From Bacteroidales bacterium (GTDB taxonomy: Bacteria; Bacteroidota; Bacteroidia; Bacteroidales; P3): 64,000 nt of DNA. Location: positions 1 through 64,000 of the forward strand of contig JAFZKV010000001.1 in NCBI GenBank assembly GCA_017551765.1, given 5' to 3'. The position numbers were made by a program, and so were the translations under genes. Numbering within the stretch: position 1 is the first letter of the stretch; each line of letters begins with the position of its first letter. Shown here piece after piece: positions 1 to 58,119 of this stretch. The notes below the pieces were generated by a model, which saw nothing but the letters and a program-made list of their open reading frames with translations, did no database searches and had not been told where the DNA came from.

Positions 1-528
1 ACCGACCACCAGCCACCGGCCTCCAAAGTGAGCCTGCTGGAGTATTTCGGGGGCAGCGACGTGGTGTGGGTGCAGAGCCTGATGATGGTGAGCCAGCGCA
101 TGGACACGCTGATGGACGAGGTGCGCAAGGCCTACATTGATAGTGATAAACGAGGAGTGATGAGTGATGAGTTAGCTGCCGCCCCGAAAAACTCATCACT
201 CATCACTCATCACTCATCACTTTTCCCTCGGCCGAAGCCCGAGGAGCTGTGCTGCACGGCCAACGAGTTCCTGCACAAGCTGCTGGAGCTGAACATTGTG
301 GAGTATGGCAACAGCCACTACTTCTCGCAGGCGGAGACCCTGGAGACCCACAGTGAGCCGCAGCCGGTGCTGGGCAAGCAGTTCGACCTGCTGACCAACA
401 CCCTCGCGCAATATGCCGAGAAGGGCTACAAACTGATTATCACCGTCAGCAACGACAGCCAAGAGAAGCGACTGCACAAAATCCTCGACGAGGATACCCA
501 TGATTTCAATTTTCAATTTTCAATTTAA
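1..528 (+). CDS. mfd: Transcription-repair coupling factor Mfd, N-terminal-side fragment (5' end outside window; broken gene)
   Basis: The frame is open from base 1, so the gene starts upstream of the window. It reads on (TDHQPPASKVSLLEYFGG...) through the UvrB-like part of Mfd and stops at 526-528. The homologous sequence resumes in another frame just downstream (HGFIDHDE..., from about 531). The break coincides with three tandem TTCAATT heptamers at 505-525, which bring in both the TAA stop and a frame change. Two more heptamer tracts lie in this fragment: 1-21 (ACCGACC type) and 155-219 (GAGTGAT copies facing four CTCATCA copies, a 17-bp inverted repeat). Either mfd is a pseudogene here, or a split protein is made, or the read or assembly is wrong. 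The assignment to Mfd rests mainly on the downstream half. Confidence 0.75.
   Translation, partial: TDHQPPASKVSLLEYFGGSDVVWVQSLMMVSQRMDTLMDEVRKAYIDSDKRGVMSDELAAAPKNSSLITHHSSLFPRPKPEELCCTANEFLHKLLELNIVEYGNSHYFSQAETLETHSEPQPVLGKQFDLLTNTLAQYAEKGYKLIITVSNDSQEKRLHKILDEDTHDFNFQFSI
155..219 (+). repeat. Heptamer tract with inverted halves inside mfd
   Basis: GAGTGAT is repeated at 155-168 and four CTCATCA units follow at 192-219. The two halves are complementary over 17 bp (155-171 with 192-208), so the transcript could fold into a hairpin. The tract is translated in frame within Mfd. Confidence 0.85.
505..525 (+). repeat. Three TTCAATT heptamers that break mfd
   Basis: Three exact tandem copies of TTCAATT occupy 505-525 and are followed at once by TAA at 526-528. 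The Mfd reading frame before and after the tract differs. An AT-only tract is out of keeping with the GC-rich gene around it. Confidence 0.9.
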
Positions 529-6376: not shown

Positions 6377-6997
6377 TCACTCGTCGCGTTTGGCCTTGAA
6401 CCACTCGACGAACTTGGGCAAGTCGTCCAACGGCTGGAAGCCGGACTTGAAGGGCTCGTCAGGCACAGGCACGGTCTCCATATAGCCGATGAGGGTGGCG
6501 CAGTCAAACTCGCCAATCAGCGCCTCAAGAGTCACATAGACGCCCACCTGGAAGTCTTCATCGGTGGCCGGTAATCGGTGGTCGGTGGTCGGCACGGCGA
6601 TGCGGAGGCCCAGCATCTCGGGCTCCTCCTCGCACTCCAGCTGCTGGAAGTACATCTTGCGGGTGTCGAACACATACTTGTCGAAGCGCACCTTGAGCTC
6701 GGTGCCCATCGGCTGCTTGAAGGCCGTGAACTGCCACCAATCAAGGTCGGGAGCGTTGTCGACCAGCTCGACAACATAGCGGAAGAGGTCTGTGTCGCCC
6801 TCGGCGGTAAAGGTCAGCATGCGGCCGTTGGCGGTGGGCTCGCCCATGTCGAAGGCAAGGCCGTCGCAGTACTTGGTGAGCTGATACTGCAGGGCGTTCA
6901 GCAACTCGTTGCGCTCCTTTTCGTCAAGGTCGTTGAGCATCACCAGCTGCTCGTTGTGGTCCACAAACCACTGCCAAAAAGTCTCTAATTTATTCAT
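6377..6997 (-). CDS. Conserved hypothetical cytoplasmic protein
   Basis: A 206-residue acidic protein without signal peptide or membrane segments, rich in aromatic residues (TFWQWFVDHNEQL at the start, WWQFTAFKQPMGTEL mid-protein, FVEWFKAK at the end). I do not recognise the family. ATG at 6997 is preferred to TTG at 7006: it leaves 5 bp after the murB stop instead of an overlap. Four heptamers at 6563-6590 encode part of PTTDHRLPATDE, which reads like a loop insertion. It sits between murB and the sialidase, probably in one transcript. Confidence 0.7.
   Translation of the reverse strand: MNKLETFWQWFVDHNEQLVMLNDLDEKERNELLNALQYQLTKYCDGLAFDMGEPTANGRMLTFTAEGDTDLFRYVVELVDNAPDLDWWQFTAFKQPMGTELKVRFDKYVFDTRKMYFQQLECEEEPEMLGLRIAVPTTDHRLPATDEDFQVGVYVTLEALIGEFDCATLIGYMETVPVPDEPFKSGFQPLDDLPKFVEWFKAKRDE
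6563..6590 (-). repeat. Four heptamers translated inside the 6377-6997 gene
   Basis: On the plus strand the units are GGTGGCC, GGTAATC, GGTGGTC and GGTGGTC, the same word family as at 27925-27952 and 54522-54549 in intergenic DNA. The reading frame of the gene continues through the tract. Confidence 0.85.
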
Positions 6998-9535: not shown

Positions 9536-9786
9536 TTATGTCGCGCACGACATAAATAGGAACTCAAAGGGGTACGTGGGAGGGGGTCAGGAGCCGTCAG
9601 GCAGGGGTAAAAATGCCCTAAAACGGCACTTTTACCACCCAAACGGCTGAAAAACACCATACTAAACCCCACCATCTCCGACTTTGCTCCGACTCAAGTC
9701 CGACTATGGTCCGACTGAAGTCCGACAAAAGTCGGACAAAATACGGTGTATGCACGGTGTTGATACGGATATGTCGTGCACGATGT
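9536..9786 (+). repeat. Paired-palindrome element, copy A
   Basis: Left palindrome at 9536-9555 (core TCGCGCACGA, one step from the usual TCGTGCACGA), right palindrome at 9771-9786. Between them lie a near-perfect stem (GGTAAAAATGCC with GGCACTTTTACC at about 9607-9637), then TCCGACT units every 11 bp from about 9677, closing in a GTCCGAC/GTCGGAC hairpin with loop AAAA (9720-9737), and a conserved tail with two CGGTG words. The rest of the 9279-9798 spacer is AT-rich, with a short ACATATT/AATATGT hairpin near 9440; I see no gene in it. Confidence 0.85.
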
Positions 9787-16519: not shown

Positions 16520-17418
16520 GCCCTTGCACCCTCTGTCCGCGGACATGCGGCGTGGACCGCACCGCCACACGCGGCTTCTGCGGAGCCCCCGACACCCTGC
16601 AGGTCAGCGCCGTATGCCTCCATCGCGGCGAGGAACCCCCAATCAACCCCATTGTCAACGTCTTTTTCACCCACTGCAGCCTACAGTGCATCTATTGCCA
16701 GAACCACCAGATTAGCCGAAGCGAAAAGACAAAAACGAAAAGCGAAACATACAGTATAGACGACTTGGCCGACCAAATCGTTCATCACTTATCACTCATC
16801 GCTCATCACTCCTCCCCCCTTCTCGGCTTCGTCACCGCCGCGCACTACACCCCTTACATTCCGCTCATCCTCAACGCCGTGCACCAGCGGGGACTACATC
16901 CCGTCACCGTCTACAACAGCAGTGGCTACGAGTCGGTCGACTCGCTCCGCACCCTCGAGGGTCTCATCGACATCTACCTGCCCGACCTCAAATATATGGA
17001 CCCGCAGCTGGCCTACGCCTACAGCCAGGCCGCCGACTATCCGCAGGTGGCCACCCGTGCCATCCGCGAGATGCGGCGCCAGGTGGGCGGTGGCCTCAAA
17101 GTGGGTGTCGATGGCAAAGCCTACCGCGGCCTCATCGTCCGCCACCTCGTCCTCCCGGGAGCGGTAGACAACTCGCTCGCCTGCCTCGAATGGCTGGCCG
17201 ACGAGTTCCCCTTCGGGCTCCACCTGGCACTCATGGCGCAGTATTTCCCTCCGTGCGAGGGACTTCCGGCACCGCTCAACCGCACAATCACCTCCGAGGA
17301 GTATGCCGCCGTGGTGACCCGCGCCGAAGAACTCGGACTCACCGACGGATGGATACAAGAGTTTGAGGCCCAGAACAATTACCGTCCCGACTTCACACGT
17401 CAAAACCCATTCGAATGA
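16516..17418 (+). CDS. Radical SAM protein of the PflX type (COG1313-like)
   Basis: 300 residues. An N-terminal cysteine cluster (SPCTLCPRTCGVDR, GFCGAP) precedes the radical SAM motif FFTHCSLQCIYCQN near residue 55, the architecture of PflX-like pyruvate formate-lyase-activating homologues. VYNSSGYES and IDIYLPDLKYMD are also typical of that family. Its protein target is unknown. ATG at 16516 (ATGA overlap with the lipoprotein stop) is preferred to ATG at 16504. Two heptamer tracts (16721-16748 and 16781-16815, 63 bp together) are translated in frame between the SAM cluster and the barrel and encode KTKTKSETY and HHLSLIAHHSS, residues that look inserted. Confidence 0.88.
   Translation: MSPCTLCPRTCGVDRTATRGFCGAPDTLQVSAVCLHRGEEPPINPIVNVFFTHCSLQCIYCQNHQISRSEKTKTKSETYSIDDLADQIVHHLSLIAHHSSPLLGFVTAAHYTPYIPLILNAVHQRGLHPVTVYNSSGYESVDSLRTLEGLIDIYLPDLKYMDPQLAYAYSQAADYPQVATRAIREMRRQVGGGLKVGVDGKAYRGLIVRHLVLPGAVDNSLACLEWLADEFPFGLHLALMAQYFPPCEGLPAPLNRTITSEEYAAVVTRAEELGLTDGWIQEFEAQNNYRPDFTRQNPFE
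16721..16815 (+). repeat. Two heptamer tracts inside the PflX-type gene
   Basis: First tract: GCGAAAA, GACAAAA, ACGAAAA, GCGAAAC (16721-16748), related to the GAAAAGC family. Second tract: TTCATCA, CTTATCA, CTCATCG, CTCATCA, CTCCTCC (16781-16815), related to the CTCATCA family in mfd. Nine units total 63 bp, which keeps the frame. Confidence 0.75.
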
Positions 17419-18002
17419 AATACAAGCTCGACATTGAGGAAAACCAGGTCGACTTCGAGGATTGGGCCTTTCTTCTTTTCCACACTCCCGCCCCCGCCCA
17501 CCTCTTCGCCGACAGCCTCAACCAACTCTACGACTGCAGTTTGACGCGCATCGACAACCTCTCCCTTGCCGGTGCCGAGTGGCCTTTTTTCCACCACGAC
17601 GACCCCGTGCGCCACCTCAAATACTTCCTCGCCGAACGCCCCGCCTCGGCAGTCGCCGCCCCTTGGGAACCTGGCGACAAACTGCTGGCCATCAGGGGCG
17701 AAAGCGCAGCCTATGTAGCCGAGGACATCTATGCCGACTTCACCGAGCCCGCCACAGTCGACCCCGCCGACCTGCTGGCTCGCCAACATGCCGACCTCAT
17801 CGACGAACTGCTCGCCGGCTTCACCATGGTCAGCCTCCTCAACCTCGACTCAGAACTCCCCAAACGCTCCGCGGCGGCCAAACAGCGCCTGCTGGTGTCA
17901 CAATTCTGTTCCGACCTGCTGGAATACATTGATTGCCACCACTTAGACCTCTCGGATGACGAGCGGCGTCTGCTACCCGAAGTCCGTACCATGTCCGACT
18001 GA
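17415..18002 (+). CDS. Hypothetical protein
   Basis: 195 residues, acidic, no signal peptide or membrane segment. It opens MKYKLDIEENQVDFEDWAFLLFHTP and has an alpha-helical C-terminal half with many Leu and Asp. I considered the IPExxxVDY family because of its size and genomic setting, but the diagnostic motifs are not there. It overlaps the PflX-type gene by 4 bp (ATGA). The last codons (EVRTMSD and stop) are made from the first units of the TCCGACT repeat, so its C-terminus may have been rewritten by that repeat. Confidence 0.7.
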   Translation: MKYKLDIEENQVDFEDWAFLLFHTPAPAHLFADSLNQLYDCSLTRIDNLSLAGAEWPFFHHDDPVRHLKYFLAERPASAVAAPWEPGDKLLAIRGESAAYVAEDIYADFTEPATVDPADLLARQHADLIDELLAGFTMVSLLNLDSELPKRSAAAKQRLLVSQFCSDLLEYIDCHHLDLSDDERRLLPEVRTMSD

Positions 18003-18098
18003 AGTCCGACTCATGTCCGACTGATGTCCGACTTTTGTCGGACATCAGTCGGACAAAACACGGAGAAAAGTCGGAGGAGTGTCGGAGTAAAATGGGTG
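17995..18098 (+). repeat. TCCGACT array, copy E (no flanking palindromes)
   Basis: TCCGACT units recur every 11 bp and then turn into AGTCGGA units. The turn forms a perfect 19-bp stem at 18014-18032 with 18037-18055 and a TTTT loop. Downstream come isolated GTCGGA words up to about 18090. Neither outer TCGTGCACGA palindrome is present, unlike copies A-D. It sits between the 18002 stop and the pepD promoter. Confidence 0.85.
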
Positions 18099-27867: not shown

Positions 27868-27895
27868 CATCACTCATCACCTATCACTCATCACC
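27868..27895. repeat. Four heptamers next to copy B
   Basis: CATCACT, CATCACC, TATCACT, CATCACC. Same word family as in mfd (192-219) and the PflX-type gene, here in noncoding DNA. Confidence 0.85.
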
Positions 27896-27899
27896 CCAA

Positions 27900-28198
27900 A
27901 AATAGGTCGTGCACGACCTATTTAGGTAATCGGTAGCCGGTAGTCGGTGGGCGGAATTGACAAAAACCGCCCCTCCAATCGCCGTTTTACCGCCCACCGA
28001 CTACCGGTTACCGACCACCAACCACCTAAAAACCACTATATCAGAGCGCAATACCACCCCCGTGGGTCGTGTTGCCGCCCCACCCCCTCCGACTCTGCTC
28101 CGACTCATGTCCGACTCAACTCCGACTAATGTCCGACCGCAGTCGGACAAAACACGTTCCATCTACGGTGTCGCTGCGAATATGTCGTGCACGACATA
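27900..28198 (+). repeat. Paired-palindrome element, copy B
   Basis: The left boundary is a perfect 24-bp palindrome (27900-27923, core TCGTGCACGA) and the right one a perfect 18-bp palindrome (28181-28198). The cores are 278 bp apart. Inside, two heptamer tracts (27925-27952 and 27992-28026) face each other as an inverted repeat. Then TCCGACT recurs every 11 bp from about 28087 and closes in a GTCCGAC/GTCGGAC hairpin (about 28131-28147). The element occupies most of the spacer between the divergent 27757 and 28462 genes. Confidence 0.9.
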
Positions 28199-28218
28199 AA
28201 TCTGTTTTTTGCAACCTC

Positions 28219-28290
28219 CCCGCTGCGCGGTAATCCATAAATCTTATCAATTAATTTTGGATTGTTGGATTACGCCGCAGGCGGGAGATA
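28219..28290. repeat. GC-rich inverted motif upstream of a promoter
   Basis: CCCCGCTGCGCGGTAATCC and, about 30 bp on, GGATTACGCCGCAGGCGGG form an imperfect inverted repeat. Related words occur at 29903-29961, also just before a promoter. Confidence 0.65.
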
Positions 28291-46193: not shown

Positions 46194-46465
46194 ATGTCGT
46201 GCACGACCTAATTGTATCAAGACCGTGTCAGCACCGTAAGTACACCGCCTTTTCTCCGACTGCAGTCGGACTTCGGTCGGACCACACTCGGACTTGAGTC
46301 GGAGCAGAATCGAAGAAAATAGGGTTTTATACACTAAACCACAGCGACTTAGGGCGAATTTACCGTAATACAGCCGTATTTGGGCACAGAAAAGGGGGCC
46401 TCCGATGCCGGAAGCCCCCGTTGTATAAACTCTAAAATATCCTATTTATATCGTGCACGACATAA
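46194..46465 (-). repeat. Paired-palindrome element, copy C (inverted)
   Basis: Palindromes at 46194-46209 and 46446-46465, cores 254 bp apart. The TCCGACT array (about 46255-46305) runs in the opposite sense to copies A and B; its hairpin is TCCGACTGCAGTCGGA at 46255-46270. The right palindrome ends one base before the proS stop codon and the proS terminator lies inside the element. Fills most of the 46102-46466 spacer; I see no gene there. Confidence 0.85.
46390..46419 (-). terminator. Terminator of proS
   Basis: GGGGGCUUCC pairs with GGAGGCCCCC (one G-U) around a six-base loop, then UUUUCUG, on the minus strand. About 50 bp after the proS stop. Confidence 0.8.
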
Positions 46466-50118: not shown

Positions 50119-52468
50119 AGCGCCACATATCATCCTCCTCATCCTTGCCACGAGCCTCTTCACCTCGTGCTACACCTACCGCTACATGGACGAGGGAGAG
50201 CATGTGCTCTATCACAACGAGTTCGACATCAAGATGGCCGACAGCAGCGCCGTCACCTCTGAAGTGAAAGATGCCCTGAAGAACGTGCAGACCTACAGCT
50301 TTCAGAAGCCCAACACCCGCTTCCTCGGCATCAAGCCCTTGCGCATCGGCATGGCCATCTACGGCATCGCCAATCCCAAAGACAAGTCAATCGTGGGTCG
50401 CTATTTCCGCACCCTGGGACAGGCCCCTGTAGTATACGATGCCGAACGAGCCCAGCGCACCACCCAGCAACTGCAACAACTGCTGCAATCGAAGGGCTGC
50501 TTCAACTCCACCGTCACCTTCGACACCCTGAAACTCACCAAGCACAACATCACCGTCGGCTACCATATCGCCGCCTCGCCACGCTACACCATCGATGAGG
50601 TAGTCTACCGCACCGAGAACCACGGCGTCGACAGCCTGCTGCGCCTCTGGAGCCCTGCCGCCCTCATCCGTGCCGGACAGCCCTACGACCAAGACAATAT
50701 TGCTGCCGAGCGCGCACGCATTGTCAACAACCTGCGCGAAACGGGCTACTACCACGCCACCGGCGACCTCGTCACCTTCATGGTCGACACCACCTACTCC
50801 TCCAACCAACTCAGCATCGACGTGCTCGTAGACGGCCGCAACCTGCAAGTCTACCACATCAACAACATCTACATCTACCCCAACCCCACCACCAGCGGCC
50901 AGAACGACACACTCATCCACACCTACTTCACGCCGCGCAACCACATCGACTATAAGTTCGTCTACTCCGAGCCCATGACGCTACACCCCCAGACCATCAG
51001 CCGCGCCATGATGCTCTTCCCCGGCATGACCTACCGCCCGCGCTACATCACCAACACCTACAACTCGCTGCTCTCGCTGCGCAACTTCAAGTACATCAAC
51101 GTAGACTTCAGCGAGTCGCCTTCCTCGACCGACACCCTGCCGCTGGTCGACGCCCATGTGCGCCTCATCAACGCCACCCAGCAGCGCCTCTCTCTCTCGC
51201 TCGAACTCACCAATGCCTCGCCCCTCGGTGGCAGCGACAGCGGCAACTTCTTCCTCGGCGGCAACCTCGGCGTGGAAACCTCGCTCGAATACCAGCACAA
51301 GAACCTCTTCGGCGGCGCCGAACTGCTGCGCGTCAAAGGCTCGCTGCTCCTCGAACTGCCGAAGCTCAACCTCGGCAGCGCCAGCGGCAGCCTGCACAAC
51401 GACTTCTCGGCCTTTGAGGCCACGCTCGACGCCACACTCGACATGCCCGTCTTCCTCATCCCCTTCTCCGAGCAATTCATCGTCTGGCAACGCTCCAAGC
51501 CCCACACCCTCCTAAGCGTCGGCGGCAGCTACCAATACCGCTACTACTTTGAGCGCATCCTCGCCAACACTTCCTTCGGTTACTCCTGGAGCCACTCCCG
51601 CACCGCCTCCAACCAGGTGTTGCCCATCGAGCTCACCTTCGTCCGCATGCTTTCTGTCGACGAAAGCTTCGCCGCACGCATGAACCGACTCAACGACCTG
51701 CGCCTCAAATACCAATACAGCAGCCACTTCATCATGGACGCGCGCTACGACTACACCTACTCCAACCAGCAATACGGCACCCGCAACAACTTCCACGCGC
51801 TGCACTTCAGCGTCGAGAGCGCGGGCAACCTGCTGGCCGGCATCGGCACCCTCGCGTCGGCACCCATCGACGAGAACGGCGTGCAGCAAATCTTCGGCGT
51901 CCCCTACTCGCAATACATACGCCTGGGCGGCGAATGGACCCGCTACCGCTATGTCGGCAGTAAAAGCACCCTCGTGGCCCGTCTCCTTATCGGCGCCGGA
52001 CTGCCTTATGGCAACTCCATCTCCATGCCCTACGAGAAAAGCTTCTTCGGCGGCGGCCCCACCACCATGCGCGCCTGGCAGCTGCGGCGCCTCGGACCTG
52101 GCAGCTACACCGCCGGTGGCGACCTGCTCGAGCGCGTGGGCGACCTGCAGCTCATCCTCAACCTCGAAAGCCGCTTCCCCATCGTCAGCATCTTTGAAGG
52201 CGCTCTCTTTACCGACATCGGCAACGTATGGCTCTTCAACGCCTCGGAAGAGTACCGCGATGGTGAAATCAAATGGAACAGCCTCCCCTCCGAACTCGCC
52301 GTCGGCGTAGGTCTCGGACTCCGCGTCAACGTCTCCATCGCCACCCTCCGCGTCGACTTCGCCATACCGCTCTACGACCCAGGCTACTCCGACGACCTCC
52401 GCTGGCGTCCGGCCCATTGGGGCTTCAACCAAATCGTTACCAACTTCGGCATCAACTACCCCTTCTAA
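50108..52468 (+). CDS. tamL: Omp85-family lipoprotein, TamL-type
   Basis: 786 residues from TTG at 50108, chosen because it starts a lipoprotein signal (KAKAPHIILLILATSLFTSC) and overlaps waaA by only 11 bp; there is no ATG nearby. Cys21 is the lipid site. POTRA-like domains fill the first 380 residues. A 16-strand barrel follows (ELTNASPLGG..., EYQHKNLFGGAELLRVKGSL) with the Omp85 signature KSFFGGGPTTMRAWQLRRLGPG near residue 645 and the terminal aromatic INYPF. In Bacteroidota, lipid-modified TamA homologues (TamL) act with TamB in outer-membrane biogenesis. No tamB is in the window. Confidence 0.88.
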   Translation: MKAKAPHIILLILATSLFTSCYTYRYMDEGEHVLYHNEFDIKMADSSAVTSEVKDALKNVQTYSFQKPNTRFLGIKPLRIGMAIYGIANPKDKSIVGRYFRTLGQAPVVYDAERAQRTTQQLQQLLQSKGCFNSTVTFDTLKLTKHNITVGYHIAASPRYTIDEVVYRTENHGVDSLLRLWSPAALIRAGQPYDQDNIAAERARIVNNLRETGYYHATGDLVTFMVDTTYSSNQLSIDVLVDGRNLQVYHINNIYIYPNPTTSGQNDTLIHTYFTPRNHIDYKFVYSEPMTLHPQTISRAMMLFPGMTYRPRYITNTYNSLLSLRNFKYINVDFSESPSSTDTLPLVDAHVRLINATQQRLSLSLELTNASPLGGSDSGNFFLGGNLGVETSLEYQHKNLFGGAELLRVKGSLLLELPKLNLGSASGSLHNDFSAFEATLDATLDMPVFLIPFSEQFIVWQRSKPHTLLSVGGSYQYRYYFERILANTSFGYSWSHSRTASNQVLPIELTFVRMLSVDESFAARMNRLNDLRLKYQYSSHFIMDARYDYTYSNQQYGTRNNFHALHFSVESAGNLLAGIGTLASAPIDENGVQQIFGVPYSQYIRLGGEWTRYRYVGSKSTLVARLLIGAGLPYGNSISMPYEKSFFGGGPTTMRAWQLRRLGPGSYTAGGDLLERVGDLQLILNLESRFPIVSIFEGALFTDIGNVWLFNASEEYRDGEIKWNSLPSELAVGVGLGLRVNVSIATLRVDFAIPLYDPGYSDDLRWRPAHWGFNQIVTNFGINYPF

Positions 52469-52529
52469 AAGCGAAAAGTGAAAAGTGAAAAGCGAAAAGT
52501 GAAAAGCGAAAAGTGAAAAGCGAAAAGTG
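52467..52529 (+). repeat. Nine heptamers linking tamL stop to the next start
   Basis: AAAAGCG and AAAAGTG alternate in nine exact units (63 bp). The array starts inside the tamL stop codon and ends with the GTG start codon of the EamA-type gene. Confidence 0.95.
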
Positions 52530-53414
52530 AAAAAGCCACTCATCTACATAGTGCTGGTGCTCAGCACCATCTTCTGGGGCATCAGTTTCATCATGACCAA
52601 GGAGCTCTTCCTCAGCGAAGAGCACATCACCGTCACCATCCTCATCACCCTGCGCCTGGCCATCGCCTCGCTGGTGATGGTGCCCGTGCTGCTGTTGACG
52701 GGCCACATGGAGCGTGTGCGCAAAGAAGACCTCAAGTGGTTCCTCCTGCTGGCGCTCTGCGAGCCCTTCATCTACAACCTATGCGAAACCAGCGGCGTGC
52801 AACTCGTCAGCGGCTCGCTGGCCTCGGTCATCGTGGCCACCATTCCCCTCTTCGTCCCCTTCGGCATGTGGCTGGGCTACCGCAAACGGATACACCTGCC
52901 GCTACTCATCGGCGTAGTGCTTTCACTCGTGGGCGTGGGCGTGATGCTCATCGGCGGCGACGGCCTGACAGGCAACGCCAAAGGACTGCTGTTCCTCAGC
53001 GGCGCCGTCTTCATCGCTGTGGTCTACACGCTTATCCTGGTGAAGATTGTAGACCACTACAATCCCGTCACCATCACCACCTATCAAAACCTTATCGGAC
53101 TTGTATACTACCTGCCGCTGATGCTGCTCACCGACGGCAGCCGCCTGCCGCTCCTCTCGTGGAGCCCCAAGATGCTCCTCCTGCTGCTCACCCTCGGCAT
53201 CTGCTGCTCCACCCTCGCCTACGTCTTCTACAACATCGGCGTGCGCCGCCTCGGCGCCTCCGAGGCCTGCATCTTCAACAACGCCATCCCTGTCTTCTCG
53301 CTCCTGGCCGCCGTACTCATCGGACAGGAGACCTTCAGCTGGCTCAAGGTGGCCGGCATCGTCATCGTCATCTCCGGCGTCGCTATCGCGCAGTATCAGC
53401 CTCGGGAAACTTAG
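52527..53414 (+). CDS. EamA/DMT-superfamily transporter
   Basis: 295 residues with ten membrane helices in two homologous halves, the drug/metabolite transporter layout. STIFWGISFIMTKELFL near residue 15 and TLGICCSTLAYVFYNIGVRRLGASEACIFNNAIPVFSLLAAVLIGQE in the second half are typical EamA sequences. Substrate unknown. The GTG start is the last codon of a heptamer array, and the stop region overlaps the converging phosphoesterase gene by 32 bp, which is tight packing for converging genes. Confidence 0.92.
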   Translation: MKKPLIYIVLVLSTIFWGISFIMTKELFLSEEHITVTILITLRLAIASLVMVPVLLLTGHMERVRKEDLKWFLLLALCEPFIYNLCETSGVQLVSGSLASVIVATIPLFVPFGMWLGYRKRIHLPLLIGVVLSLVGVGVMLIGGDGLTGNAKGLLFLSGAVFIAVVYTLILVKIVDHYNPVTITTYQNLIGLVYYLPLMLLTDGSRLPLLSWSPKMLLLLLTLGICCSTLAYVFYNIGVRRLGASEACIFNNAIPVFSLLAAVLIGQETFSWLKVAGIVIVISGVAIAQYQPRET

Positions 53415-54558: not shown

Positions 54559-54847
54559 ATCGTGCACGACCTATTCGTATCGGCACCGTATCTGCACCAT
54601 ATCAACACCGCCTTTTGTCCGACTGCAGTCGGACTTCAGTCGGACCATACTCGGACTTGAGTCGGACCACAGTCGGAGTTGGTGCGGGACGACCTACCCG
54701 TTAACATGTTTATAACATGATTATTAACACTATCAATTGCCATCAACACCCGTTTTTGTCCAACAGAAGGCCGTTTTAGGGGCTATTCAGAGGTCGAACT
54801 GACCACCGACTACCGGCCACCGACCACCCATTTACATCGTGCACGAC
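54559..54847 (-). repeat. Paired-palindrome element, copy D (inverted)
   Basis: Core TCGTGCACGA at 54560-54569 and 54837-54846, 277 bp apart. Each is preceded by a four-heptamer tract (54522-54549 and 54801-54828) and by CCCATTTACATCGTGCACGA, so the two ends are direct repeats. The TCCGACT array runs on the minus strand, with its hairpin GTCCGACTGCAGTCGGAC at 54617-54634. An AT-rich patch with AACATG words fills 54700-54740. The rest of the 54438-54992 spacer shows no gene. Confidence 0.88.
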
Positions 54848-55930: not shown

Positions 55931-57362
55931 GGAAAAGAGACAAACAGCCAAATATATTGTCTGCGACACCCTGTCGGCCATGCTGGCGTGGGCGGCGCTT
56001 TTCGTCTTCCGCAAGACGGTGCTCGAAGCCGACGGATGGGAGGGACTGCGACAGGTGTTCAACGACTCGCACTTCTGGATAGGCCTGCTGGTGGTCACCG
56101 CAGGCTGGCTGGCGCTCTACACGATACAGGGCATGTACCGCAACGTGCTGCGGCGGGCCCGACTGAAAGAGCTGCTCGAGACGCTGATTGCCACCGTGCT
56201 GGGCGTGGTGGTGATTTTCTTCGTGCTGCTCATCGACGACGAGATGCCCTCCTACCGCAACCACTACGCCTCGTTTCTCTTCCTGCTGGCGGTGCATTTC
56301 ACGCTGACCTACATTCCCCGCCTGCTCATCACCACGCAAACCGTGGGGCGCGTGCACAACCGCAGCATAGGTTTCCCGACGCTGATGGTCGGCACCGGCC
56401 GCAAGGCGCTGCAGACCTACCTCGACCTTGAGAACCAGGAGACCTACTCGGGCGAATTGTTTGTGGGTTGCATCGACGTGGCGGAGGGCGCGCGGAAAGC
56501 GGAGAGCGAAGAGCAAGGGGTGGAGAAGGTGATGCCCTGCCTGGGCAAGCTGGACAACCTGCGCGAGGTGGTGGAGCGCCACAACGTGGAGGAGGTGATT
56601 ATCGCCGTTGAGGACGAGGATCGTAGCCGCGTGAACGAGCTGCTACGGGCTGTGGACGAGGCAGGCGACATGATTATCAAAATCACCCCCGACGCCCGCG
56701 ACCTGATGGTGGGCTCCATCAAGCAGGAGAGCATCTTCCACTCGCCGCTGATAGTGATCAACAACCGTCTGATGGACGAGTGGCAGTACTCGCTGAAGCG
56801 CATCTTCGACATCTTCATCTCGCTGGTGGCGCTGGTGGTGCTGTCGCCTGTCTTCCTCGTAACGGCGCTGATAGTGAAACTCACCACCCCTGGGCCCGTG
56901 TTCTACGCCCAGGAGCGCATAGGCTACCACGGCAAGCCGTTCAAGATGCACAAGTTCCGCTCGATGTATGTCGACGCCGAAGAGAGCGGCCCCGCGCTGA
57001 GCAAGGACAACGACCCCCGCATCACCCCCTTTGGACGCTTCATGCGCAAGGTGAGGCTGGACGAGATACCGCAGTTCTACAATGTGCTGAAAGGCACGAT
57101 GAGCCTGGTGGGGCCCCGCCCCGAGCGGCAATTCTACATTGACCAGATTGTGAAGCGCGCACCCGAATACCTGTTGCTGCAGCGCGTGAAACCCGGCATC
57201 ACTTCGTGGGGCCAGGTAAAATACGGCTATGCGTCGACGGTGGACGAGATGGTGGAGCGCCTGCGCTACGACCTGCTGTACCTCGACAACATGTCGCTCA
57301 GCACCGACCTGAAGATACTCCTCTACACGGTGATTATCATCATACAAGGACGGGGTAAATGA
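55929..57362 (+). CDS. Polyprenyl-phosphate sugar-1-phosphate transferase (WbaP/WcaJ type)
   Basis: Starts exopolysaccharide or O-unit synthesis by moving a hexose-1-phosphate to undecaprenyl phosphate. 477 residues: four N-terminal membrane helices, a cytoplasmic Rossmann-like domain (about 135-260), and the catalytic domain at the C-terminus with LKRIFDIFISLVALVVLSP, FYAQERIGYHGKPFKMHKFRSM, RLDEIPQFYNVLKGTMSLVGPRPE and KPGITSWGQVKYGYAST. Heptamers at 56492-56526 are translated inside the Rossmann-like domain (about residues 188-200). The ATG is formed by the last unit of the upstream array; the stop begins the next array. Confidence 0.93.
   Translation: MEKRQTAKYIVCDTLSAMLAWAALFVFRKTVLEADGWEGLRQVFNDSHFWIGLLVVTAGWLALYTIQGMYRNVLRRARLKELLETLIATVLGVVVIFFVLLIDDEMPSYRNHYASFLFLLAVHFTLTYIPRLLITTQTVGRVHNRSIGFPTLMVGTGRKALQTYLDLENQETYSGELFVGCIDVAEGARKAESEEQGVEKVMPCLGKLDNLREVVERHNVEEVIIAVEDEDRSRVNELLRAVDEAGDMIIKITPDARDLMVGSIKQESIFHSPLIVINNRLMDEWQYSLKRIFDIFISLVALVVLSPVFLVTALIVKLTTPGPVFYAQERIGYHGKPFKMHKFRSMYVDAEESGPALSKDNDPRITPFGRFMRKVRLDEIPQFYNVLKGTMSLVGPRPERQFYIDQIVKRAPEYLLLQRVKPGITSWGQVKYGYASTVDEMVERLRYDLLYLDNMSLSTDLKILLYTVIIIIQGRGK
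56492..56526 (+). repeat. Five heptamers inside the sugar transferase gene
   Basis: CGCGGAA, AGCGGAG, AGCGAAG, AGCAAGG, GGTGGAG; the AGCGGAG word is shared with the ftsK linker array. Encodes the charged stretch ARKAESEEQGVEK. Confidence 0.7.
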
Positions 57363-57410
57363 AAAGTGAAAAGCGAAAAGTGAAAAATGAAAAATGAAAA
57401 GTGAAAAATA
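57362..57410 (+). repeat. Seven heptamers before the FKBP gene
   Basis: AAAAGTG, AAAAGCG, AAAAGTG, AAAAATG, AAAAATG, AAAAGTG, AAAAATA. It starts in the stop codon of the sugar transferase gene and ends one base before the FKBP ATG. Confidence 0.92.
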
Positions 57411-57411
57411 T

Positions 57412-58119
57412 ATGAAACAGAGATTACTGATTGGGGCGCTGGCGCTACTGTTGCTGGCTGCCTGCGGAGAGAAGAGCAAGGCTCCACGGCTGGAGAACAT
57501 GAACGACACCCTCTCGTGGGTTATGGGCGAGAACCTGGGCCTGGCGCTGGACCAAATGGAGAGCTTCCAACTCGACTACAACCTGGTGATGCAGGCCATG
57601 AAGCACACCCTCGACGACAAAGAGCAGCCCCTCAGCGACAGCGCCTTCCACGACATGATGAACTACATCATCTTCATGCAGCAGCAAGAGGCGCTGCGCA
57701 AGGCCGAGGGCAACAAGACGATGGTGGACCGTCAGCAGGAGGCCTATTTCGCCAACCTGGAAAAGGAGAACCCCAACGTCAAGAAGCATCCTGCAGGCTT
57801 CTACTATGAAGTGTTGAAACAGGGCAAGGGACGCACGGCGGAAGTGGGCCTGCGCGTCAGTTTCGACTACCGCAGCTTCCTGATGTTCAGCGGCGAGGCC
57901 TACGACCAGACCTACGGCAAGCGCGACCCCATACTGCATGTGGTGGGCAAGCCGATGTTCCCGGGCCTGATTGCCGGCATGCAGTTGATGAACGAGGGCA
58001 GCATCTACCGCTTCTACTTCCCTTATCAGCTGGCTTTCGGCGAACGCGGCTCGGACCCGATACCCGGCTTCACCCCTTTTATCTACGAGGTGGAACTGCA
58101 CAAGATTTACAACGACTAA
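57412..58119 (+). CDS. FKBP-type peptidyl-prolyl isomerase lipoprotein
   Basis: 235 residues from ATG at 57412 (signal MKQRLLIGALALLLLAAC; a start at 57394 would lie in the repeat array). After the lipidated Cys18, a helical dimerisation domain covers about residues 25-120 (NMNDTLSWVMGENLGLALD), as in Mip/FkpA proteins. The FKBP domain follows (GFYYEVLKQGKGRTAEVG ... YDQTYGKRDPILHVVGKPMFPGLIAGMQLMNEGSIYRFYFPYQLAFGERG). It would help fold secreted proteins in the periplasm. Confidence 0.92.
   Translation: MKQRLLIGALALLLLAACGEKSKAPRLENMNDTLSWVMGENLGLALDQMESFQLDYNLVMQAMKHTLDDKEQPLSDSAFHDMMNYIIFMQQQEALRKAEGNKTMVDRQQEAYFANLEKENPNVKKHPAGFYYEVLKQGKGRTAEVGLRVSFDYRSFLMFSGEAYDQTYGKRDPILHVVGKPMFPGLIAGMQLMNEGSIYRFYFPYQLAFGERGSDPIPGFTPFIYEVELHKIYND

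Follow-up and report, generated by a model that had tools for sequence, protein, structure and literature searches.

Dispersed intergenic repeats of a Bacteroidales genome may combine paired OhrR-type operators with a helically phased array

Background

Dispersed bacterial repeats are usually regarded as junk or as relics of mobile elements. BIMEs are dispersed intergenic repeats, for which mosaic replacement between copies is known, and to our knowledge neither BIME/REP nor CIR repeats carry paired repressor operators or an 11-bp grid of anchors. Direct repeats of 11 bp are characteristic of parC-type centromeres, which are bound by ParR and belong to a plasmid locus with partition genes; the units that we describe here resemble them in having 11-bp repeats, but are dispersed, gene-free and framed by operator-like sites.

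Among described systems, BrickBuilt of Porphyromonas gingivalis is a MITE with a 23-nt repeat, 19 copies and small terminal inverted repeats that have been compared with IS ends (PMC4596501). Like BrickBuilt, the present units occur in Bacteroidales, are intergenic and dispersed, and hold a tandem repeat within a bounded element, whereas their repeat unit is 11 bp and their ends are different, and neither operator ends nor 11-bp phasing appear in the portion of the BrickBuilt description drawn on here (PMC4596501). Correia elements of Neisseria, according to the excerpted account, are dispersed repeats with a site for IHF (a DNA-bending host protein) that alters a neighbouring operon (PMC10969869); the units are likewise dispersed repeats, with paired repressor operators around an 11-bp array in place of the IHF site. 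The same source lists Caulobacter CIR, and also REP, as intergenic repeats (PMC10969869), a property shared by BIME/REP, CIR and the units alike. As regards regulators, sites of the OhrR family are described, in the section of the source used here, as AATT-N-AATT, and OspR of Pseudomonas aeruginosa as controlling gpx (PMC4999210).

We analysed a stretch of 64,000 nucleotides (the window) from contig 92 of a Bacteroidales metagenome-assembled genome (MAG) of 1.92 Mb (148 contigs, 90% complete; G000), together with a sister species of about 91% identity (G093) and further genomes of the genus and beyond. By proS, the nearest named relatives of the host are ruminant-gut Bacteroidales MAGs, and the proS of Candidatus Colimorpha merdihippi is an 85% match. 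On balance, we lean towards reading the repeats of this genome as redox-switchable looping or insulating cassettes, in which paired OhrR-type operators would stand around a phased, protein-binding array. No description of the element, or of a TCGTGCACGA operator in bacteria, was found in the open-access literature by title and start of abstract. To judge by the available portions of the published descriptions, this suggests a new form of dispersed regulatory repeat, uniting paired repressor operators with a helically phased array, a combination absent from BrickBuilt, Correia elements, CIR and BIMEs as described.

Layout of the units in the window

The original prediction, made from the letters of the window, placed four copies of one palindrome-array-palindrome plan (A to D) in it, and all four were found at the places given, with no gene in their interiors. 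It also called all four intergenic, which stands for A to D; a fifth array (E) is not strictly intergenic, since it overlaps the stop codon of an open reading frame. The features are as follows.

9541 to 9550, forward strand: copy A, core of first palindrome (TCGCGCACGA, one mismatch)
9677 to 9736, forward strand: copy A, phased array, TCCG anchors at 9677, 9688, 9699, 9710 and 9721, closing in TCCGACAAAAGTCGGA
9737 to 9773, forward strand: copy A, mirrored right arm with CGGTG words near the 11-bp grid (by eye)
9774 to 9783, forward strand: copy A, core of second palindrome
17994 to 18075, forward strand: palindrome-free array E, whose left and right 11-bp units are near-symmetric and which overlaps the stop codon ending the open reading frame at 17415-18002
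27907 to 27916, forward strand: copy B, first palindrome
28088 to 28147, forward strand: copy B, array, anchors at 28088, 28099, 28110, 28121 and 28132, closing in GTCGGA
28148 to 28184, forward strand: copy B, mirrored right arm (by eye)
28185 to 28194, forward strand: copy B, second palindrome
46451 to 46460, reverse strand: copy C, first palindrome, 6 bp beyond the proS stop codon
46390 to 46419, reverse strand: terminator-like hairpin and T run directly downstream of proS, within the interval of copy C (by eye)
46255 to 46303, reverse strand: copy C, array with 4 anchors
46197 to 46206, reverse strand: copy C, second palindrome
54837 to 54846, reverse strand: copy D, first palindrome
54618 to 54677, reverse strand: copy D, array with 5 anchors
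54560 to 54569, reverse strand: copy D, second palindrome

From core start to core start the copies measure 233 (A), 278 (B), 254 (C) and 277 bp (D), with five anchors in A, B and D and four in C. At up to one mismatch the window holds 9 palindromes, against 2.87 expected (100 shuffles, largest value 8). A relaxed core finds 13 window sites, and TA at ±8/9 is present on both sides in the 8 sites of copies A to D and on neither side in the remaining 5. The three-unit TCCGA-type pattern matches 29 times against 0 expected, and three TCCG words at a period of 11 occur 17 times, against one at most for every other period from 6 to 20; across 14 loci (243 kb) of close relatives the 11-bp period is not outstanding (6 occurrences, where period 7 has 8 and periods 6 and 14 have 5 apiece). 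The genes flanking A to D encode a MATE transporter, an aquaporin, ProS, an ATPase-domain protein and four proteins without a Pfam match, and no peroxide theme was apparent among these window neighbours, which counts against the operator reading.

Other repeats occupy the same spaces. Repeats of 7 bp lie in intergenic parts of the window (180-234, 6561-6586, 16783-16823, 27868-27894, 52448-52554 and 57343-57421) in the flavours ATCACTC, GTGAAAA and GGTCGGT, with TTGTCAG at other loci; GGTCGGT-like and TTGTCAG words also compose the left module of many units, and by a loose word search follow the second palindrome in up to 17 of 47 G000 units. A separate dispersed inverted repeat, CCTCCCCGC...GGCGGGAG with GGATTACG words, adjoins units, at 28213-28290 in the window and in the left flanks of L013, L045, L054 and L058.

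Copy number and genomic position

A search across the genome and its genus found the motif at many loci besides A to D and E, as predicted for a dispersed element with conserved ends, and no Rfam family matched in the window at gathering score, so that the match to a known RNA family that the original prediction took as a possible refutation did not appear. In G000 the palindrome pattern occurs 260 times (both strands, four gap lengths counted) and the backward pattern 0 times. The stretches around the listed places yielded at least 51 distinct palindrome-to-palindrome units, each with an array (47 at first, and 51 once further stretches and a looser core were added), as well as 8 arrays, E included, without these palindromes. 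Units are 243-388 bp long, mostly 287-288 or 276-277 bp, L010 being an irregular copy of 388 bp, and commonly run in the order first palindrome, variable left module, array, mirrored tail, second palindrome.

By a simple gene caller the units are intergenic, with palindromes at least 78 bp (left) and 54 bp (right) from a gene start and from 1 bp upwards from a gene end. Nearly all G000 units lie upstream of at least one gene. By eye no recognisable promoter was seen at the palindromes except at marR, which tells against the operator reading. Gene context could be resolved for 37 of 47 units, leaving 10, and was divergent in 19, tandem in 15 and convergent in 3. In the intergenic background (the window plus three G093 stretches, units included), divergent spaces make up 5203 of 17041 bp (31%), convergent spaces 1300 of 17041 bp (8%) and tandem spaces 62%. 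An excess of divergent contexts is possible; an orientation bias towards genes, or a depletion of convergent sites, was rejected on comparison of the 3 convergent units among the 37 resolved with their share of this background.

The palindrome and an OhrR-like regulator

Across 67 distinct units of G000 and G093, 133 of 134 palindrome sites fit TANRTCGYGCRCGAYNTA, and TA stands at positions 8/9 in all 268 halves of these sites; the core had been chosen at up to one mismatch, with no selection for the TA. The palindrome arms have complementary dinucleotides at 43 of these 134 sites, whereas shuffling gives 30.0, with a count as high in 5 of 5000 shuffles; either a hairpin or a symmetric dimer site would produce this.

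A search for the core with TAAAT across 121 genomes of the genus gave 89 matches in G000, 84 in G093 and one each in five others. That of G135 lies within an array unit, that of G137 belongs to a pair of palindromes 289 bp apart, and those of G095, G109 and G128 belong to pairs 78-79 bp apart, which in G095 and G128 precede a glutathione peroxidase gene adjoining a MarR gene. The G095 MarR protein has a Pfam MarR match; its gene is followed by a radical-SAM gene (L210 5244-6341). With this protein as query, and thus independently of the palindrome, a search of six genomes (G000, G093, G012, G135, G137 and G009) returned one gene in each, and in all six TCGTnnACGA is found at the promoter of marR or of its ferritin/glutathione peroxidase operon, one site falling right after a TTTGCA box.

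Details of these sites point both ways. The first operator in G012, G135, G137 and G009 is TCGTGAACGA, whose centre is GA and which differs from the element cores, and most operators outside G000 and G093 have A/T at ±6 where units mostly have G/C, which speaks against the operator reading. On the other side, G135 has the 18-mer TAGATCGTGCACGATCTA two times at its operon and again at both ends of its unit, operators and units of G012 share the TCGCGCACGA form, and the marR promoters of G000 and G093 are themselves units of the palindrome-array-palindrome type. Judged from the letters, the palindrome looks like a repressor operator.

The regulator also resembles the OhrR/OspR type of MarR protein. 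That of G093 is closest in the PDB to OhrR (1z91, E 3.6e-33, and 1z9c; also 2pfb/2pex), and two Cys residues are retained in all eight proteins aligned, the N-terminal one in LDNQxCF and another close to the C-terminus; both have a redox role in OhrR. Palindromic sites stand at its own promoter, and in 4 of the 6 genomes its gene lies directly downstream of a gene that is glutathione peroxidase-like by sequence, a link to this enzyme also described for OspR, which controls gpx (PMC4999210). In G000 and G093 it is not beside such a gene, and at least 102 framed sites contrast with a few for OhrR/OspR. Against the NCBIfam OhrR model NF052638, whose name points to Vibrio, the G095 protein scores 130 bits, below the cut-off of 200. 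The published core AATT-N-AATT was not matched, the core here being TCGTGCACGA, and since this differs from the core quoted in the portion of the source used (PMC4999210), the regulator here would have its own specificity.

The neighbourhood of the gene varies. The ohrR-like gene is followed by a gene for an unknown protein of 128 residues in G000 and G093 (L257, L258), and in G000 faces a SpoU methylase gene. Genes with an N-terminus like that of the G095 radical-SAM gene follow marR in G009, G012, G137 and G135 (L253-L256), and are not seen there in G000 or G093.

Conservation, empty sites and mobility

Copies A, B and D and array E have counterparts at the matching places of G093, while C is not comparable there because synteny breaks after proS. 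In all, 15 G000 loci correspond to a G093 site that also carries a unit; these sites were located through units, so the count is silent on absences. Nine of the 15 look like true orthologs (body identity 0.86-0.95), implying that those insertions are older than the split of the two species; five have body identities of just 0.77-0.82 despite matching flanks, and the fifteenth is a duplicate of one of these five. Within this group of five, the body of B is largely replaced relative to G093, and the unit own17 is mosaic: its outer parts are identical, and its middle has diverged.

Substitutions between the sister species are unevenly spread. In the nine orthologs, changes amount to 0/180 positions in the TCCG anchors, 34/360 in array spacers, 5/180 in palindrome cores, 16/251 in palindrome arms and 35/298 in the mirrored tail, with 14-17% in the flanks. 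For the five low-identity loci the corresponding figures are 0/100 (anchors), 22/200 (spacers), 0/100 (cores), 20/139 (arms) and 9/150 (tail), with 8-27% in the flanks. Pooled, 0 of 280 anchor positions changed against 56 of 560 spacer positions. By these counts it is the left anchors that are exceptional; the mirrored arm is no more conserved than the spacers (35/298 and 9/150 changed), a result that tells against our preferred reading.

The original prediction had named non-autonomous mobile elements among its possibilities, and the most serious competitor of the operator reading is of this kind: a MITE-like repeat, whose palindromes would be ends moved by an unseen transposase and whose phasing and repeats would be structural by-products. 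The units are short, gene-free, many-copy and intergenic, as MITEs are; the copies in G000 have defined ends and, at different loci, reach 94% similarity. Moreover, empty sites do occur in relatives. Copy C is absent in L104 and L095, in both of which proS adjoins the aquaporin gene at a spacing of about 165 and 135 bp respectively (365 bp here), with a terminator-like hairpin after proS even in these element-free loci (by eye). In the region of D, the matched neighbours are separated by at most 167 bp in G012 and 214 bp in G009 against 555 bp here, although the left neighbour is just 48-49% identical and the gene pair is thus perhaps not strictly orthologous. No target duplication was seen, the empty-site alignments of C and D being too diverged for a junction reading; among elements present only in G093, L188 gave no flank match in G000 and L186 a partial match without a unit. 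Several observations sit poorly with the palindromes as transposon ends: they stand at marR promoters of species that have no array between them, C and L174 of G093 each enclose a terminator-like hairpin, the anchors are unchanged at all 280 positions, and the nine ortholog-like loci predate the species split. We regard a purely mobile repeat as unlikely, while the units may have spread as a MITE, which is compatible with their reading as operators.

Three related candidates were rejected. An autonomous transposon found no support, as no pair of palindromes 1-4 kb apart occurs among the first 100 places listed (the palindromic ends being self-symmetric, inverted and direct arrangements cannot be distinguished). 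Phage or plasmid carriage was dismissed on 0 matches of the palindrome pattern and 1 of the array pattern (L209) in viral contigs, and an invertible switch on the interior orientation being kept in six ortholog pairs and the 15 loci being paired in one orientation.

Helical phasing and the RNA alternative

The original prediction took the 11-bp period as a sign of protein binding along one face of the helix, and this idea gains from the finding that palindromes and anchors share a common 11-bp grid. The distance from the first palindrome to the first anchor leaves a residue of 3-5 modulo 11 in 46/51 units of G000, 19/20 of G093, 8/8 of G012 and 2/2 of G137, though in 0/1 of G135 (value 7); that from the last anchor to the second palindrome leaves 8-10 in 50/51, 20/20, 8/8, 1/2 (G137) and 1/1 (G135). 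Individual pairs of left and right phases are 4/9 (A), 5/9 (B), 3/9 (C) and 4/9 (D), and 3/9 and 2/9 in the marR units. Copy C keeps its phase despite the terminator-like hairpin in its interval, and the left intervals of G012 range from 15 to 201 bp and are mutually unlike by eye.

With each value counted once, a Rayleigh test at 11 bp gives p values of 4.8e-5 (24 values) and 1.4e-3 (12) for palindrome-anchor distances and 8.8e-5 (25 values) for palindrome-to-palindrome distances. When periods of 7-16 bp are scanned, these sets score best at 10.75-11.0 bp; the seven palindrome distances of G012 alone favour 15.75 bp, with 11.0 close behind. Distances to gene ends, taken as a control, are not phased in this way (p 0.29-0.97). 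In G012, G137 and G135 together, a window of three residues takes in 10 of the 11 left phases, as did 28 of 200,000 random draws; without a repeated distance it takes in 9 of 10 (116 of 200,000 draws). Arithmetic puts both palindrome centres about 1 bp off the phase of the TCCG centres. These counts are not independent, as copies within a genome are related; the 11-bp period was picked after a scan, and slippage by 11-bp units could be the source of part of the phasing.

The phasing bears on a second alternative, namely that the units are structural RNAs or transcription terminators, with TCCGAC/GTCGGA hairpins acting in transcripts. The arrays do fold strongly (-34 to -58 kcal/mol, calculated without a shuffle control) and are directional, with a regular left half and a degenerate right; four arrays without palindromes (E, L226, L227 and L173) lie directly against a stop codon, and L173 also has a T run (by eye), and the complementary palindrome arms would suit a hairpin as well as a dimer site. 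Phasing between palindromes and anchors across unlike intervening DNA is, however, not expected of separate hairpins, the framed units face genes in every arrangement, and the window has no Rfam match. The RNA option is consequently disfavoured, and we consider it distinctly improbable.

The array as a repeat of the genus

The pattern (TCCG-N7)x3-TCCG is present in 61 of the 121 genus genomes (34 of the 62 good ones), and 26 genomes have at least 10 overlapping matches, with a maximum of 305; the reversed control pattern is found in 20 of 121, at least 10 times in four (G003, G086, G129 and G135). The 7-nt spacer is genome-specific and repeated at many loci (TCCGAGGATGG, TCCGTCTCACC and TCCGTGTCATC, for example, with TCCGACTCAAG in G000). 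A stricter TCCGAC pattern occurs in 10 of the 121 genus genomes and, in the order, in the window's own genome only among 393, while 66 loci of more distant Bacteroidota (1.16 Mb) contain 0 three-unit TCCG arrays of period 11. The mirrored arm that follows the array is degenerate, and the contrast with the regular left half gives the array a direction. As the array occurs in more genus genomes than the palindrome frame, the units look like an older array repeat that pre-existed and acquired repressor operators later, in some species.

A general nucleoid or chromosome-organising repeat of BIME type, bound by an architectural protein and resembling OhrR operators by convergence, would suit a genus-wide array with 11-bp anchors and genome-specific spacers, and also the mosaic replacement between copies, but seems the least probable of the alternatives given that the palindrome matches marR-promoter sites of several species, down to species-specific detail in G135, and that arrays alone leave the framing sites unexplained.

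Further arrays were noted in passing. The reversed control, (GCCT-N7)x3-GCCT, has 224 matches in G135 and 103 in G129, and there may be a second 11-bp repeat with another word in the genus. In G137 the palindrome pair 289 bp apart (L214 3755-4075) lacks a TCCG array and in its place has CTTAC/CCTAC words arrayed at 11-bp spacing (minus strand; by eye), so the palindrome frame may be able to hold arrays with other anchors. At about 960-1100 of L223 an array lies between two direct copies of another imperfect palindrome, TGACAAAATGGCAGTC, and a similar sequence is found near an array in G079 (L249). Many arrays, with or without palindromes, are directly preceded by a short motif resembling CTGATACTTAGCACC or CTGTAAATCAGCACC (L061, L068, L073, L074, L078, L062, L218 and L220).

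A proposed redox-switchable operator array

Three features lead us to favour proteins on DNA over RNA: anchors that stay constant while the spacers drift, a symmetric site that also occurs at the ohrR-type promoter, and an 11-bp grid on which palindromes and anchors both lie. In the operator-array reading, each copy would be a compact nucleoprotein platform, in which two operators for a peroxide-sensing OhrR/MarR-type repressor (TANRTCGYGCRCGAYNTA) frame usually four to five TCCG anchors 11 bp apart. An OhrR-like protein would bind both palindromes, while the anchors would be occupied, along a single helix face, by another protein or by OhrR itself; the bound proteins may jointly bend or loop the 233-378 bp between the operators. 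Oxidation of the sensor would release the complex, so that many intergenic sites could switch together, with silencing, insulation or local chromosome folding as the conceivable output.

A bolder version, which we find doubtful though worth stating, is that one OhrR-type repressor that senses peroxide has come to act as an architectural switch for the whole chromosome. Some fifty two-operator wrapping or looping units per genome, built on the older phased array, would then be assembled when the sensor is reduced and jointly lost on its oxidation, and the regulator's own promoter, being itself a unit, would close a feedback loop; in G000 and G093, the two species in which most sites were seen, its gene would have lost its place beside glutathione peroxidase.

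Here a family of repeats is connected, from sequence alone, with a named regulator and with a physical constraint, namely placement of operators and anchors on the same helix face at about 11 bp per turn. If the operator reading is true, the units would offer a clear example from bacteria of repressor operators spread through a genome by a repeat. Two questions become testable as a result: what binds the TCCG anchors, which are numerous in 26 of 121 genomes of the genus with spacers specific to each genome, and whether redox state may reshape a chromosome through one sensor.
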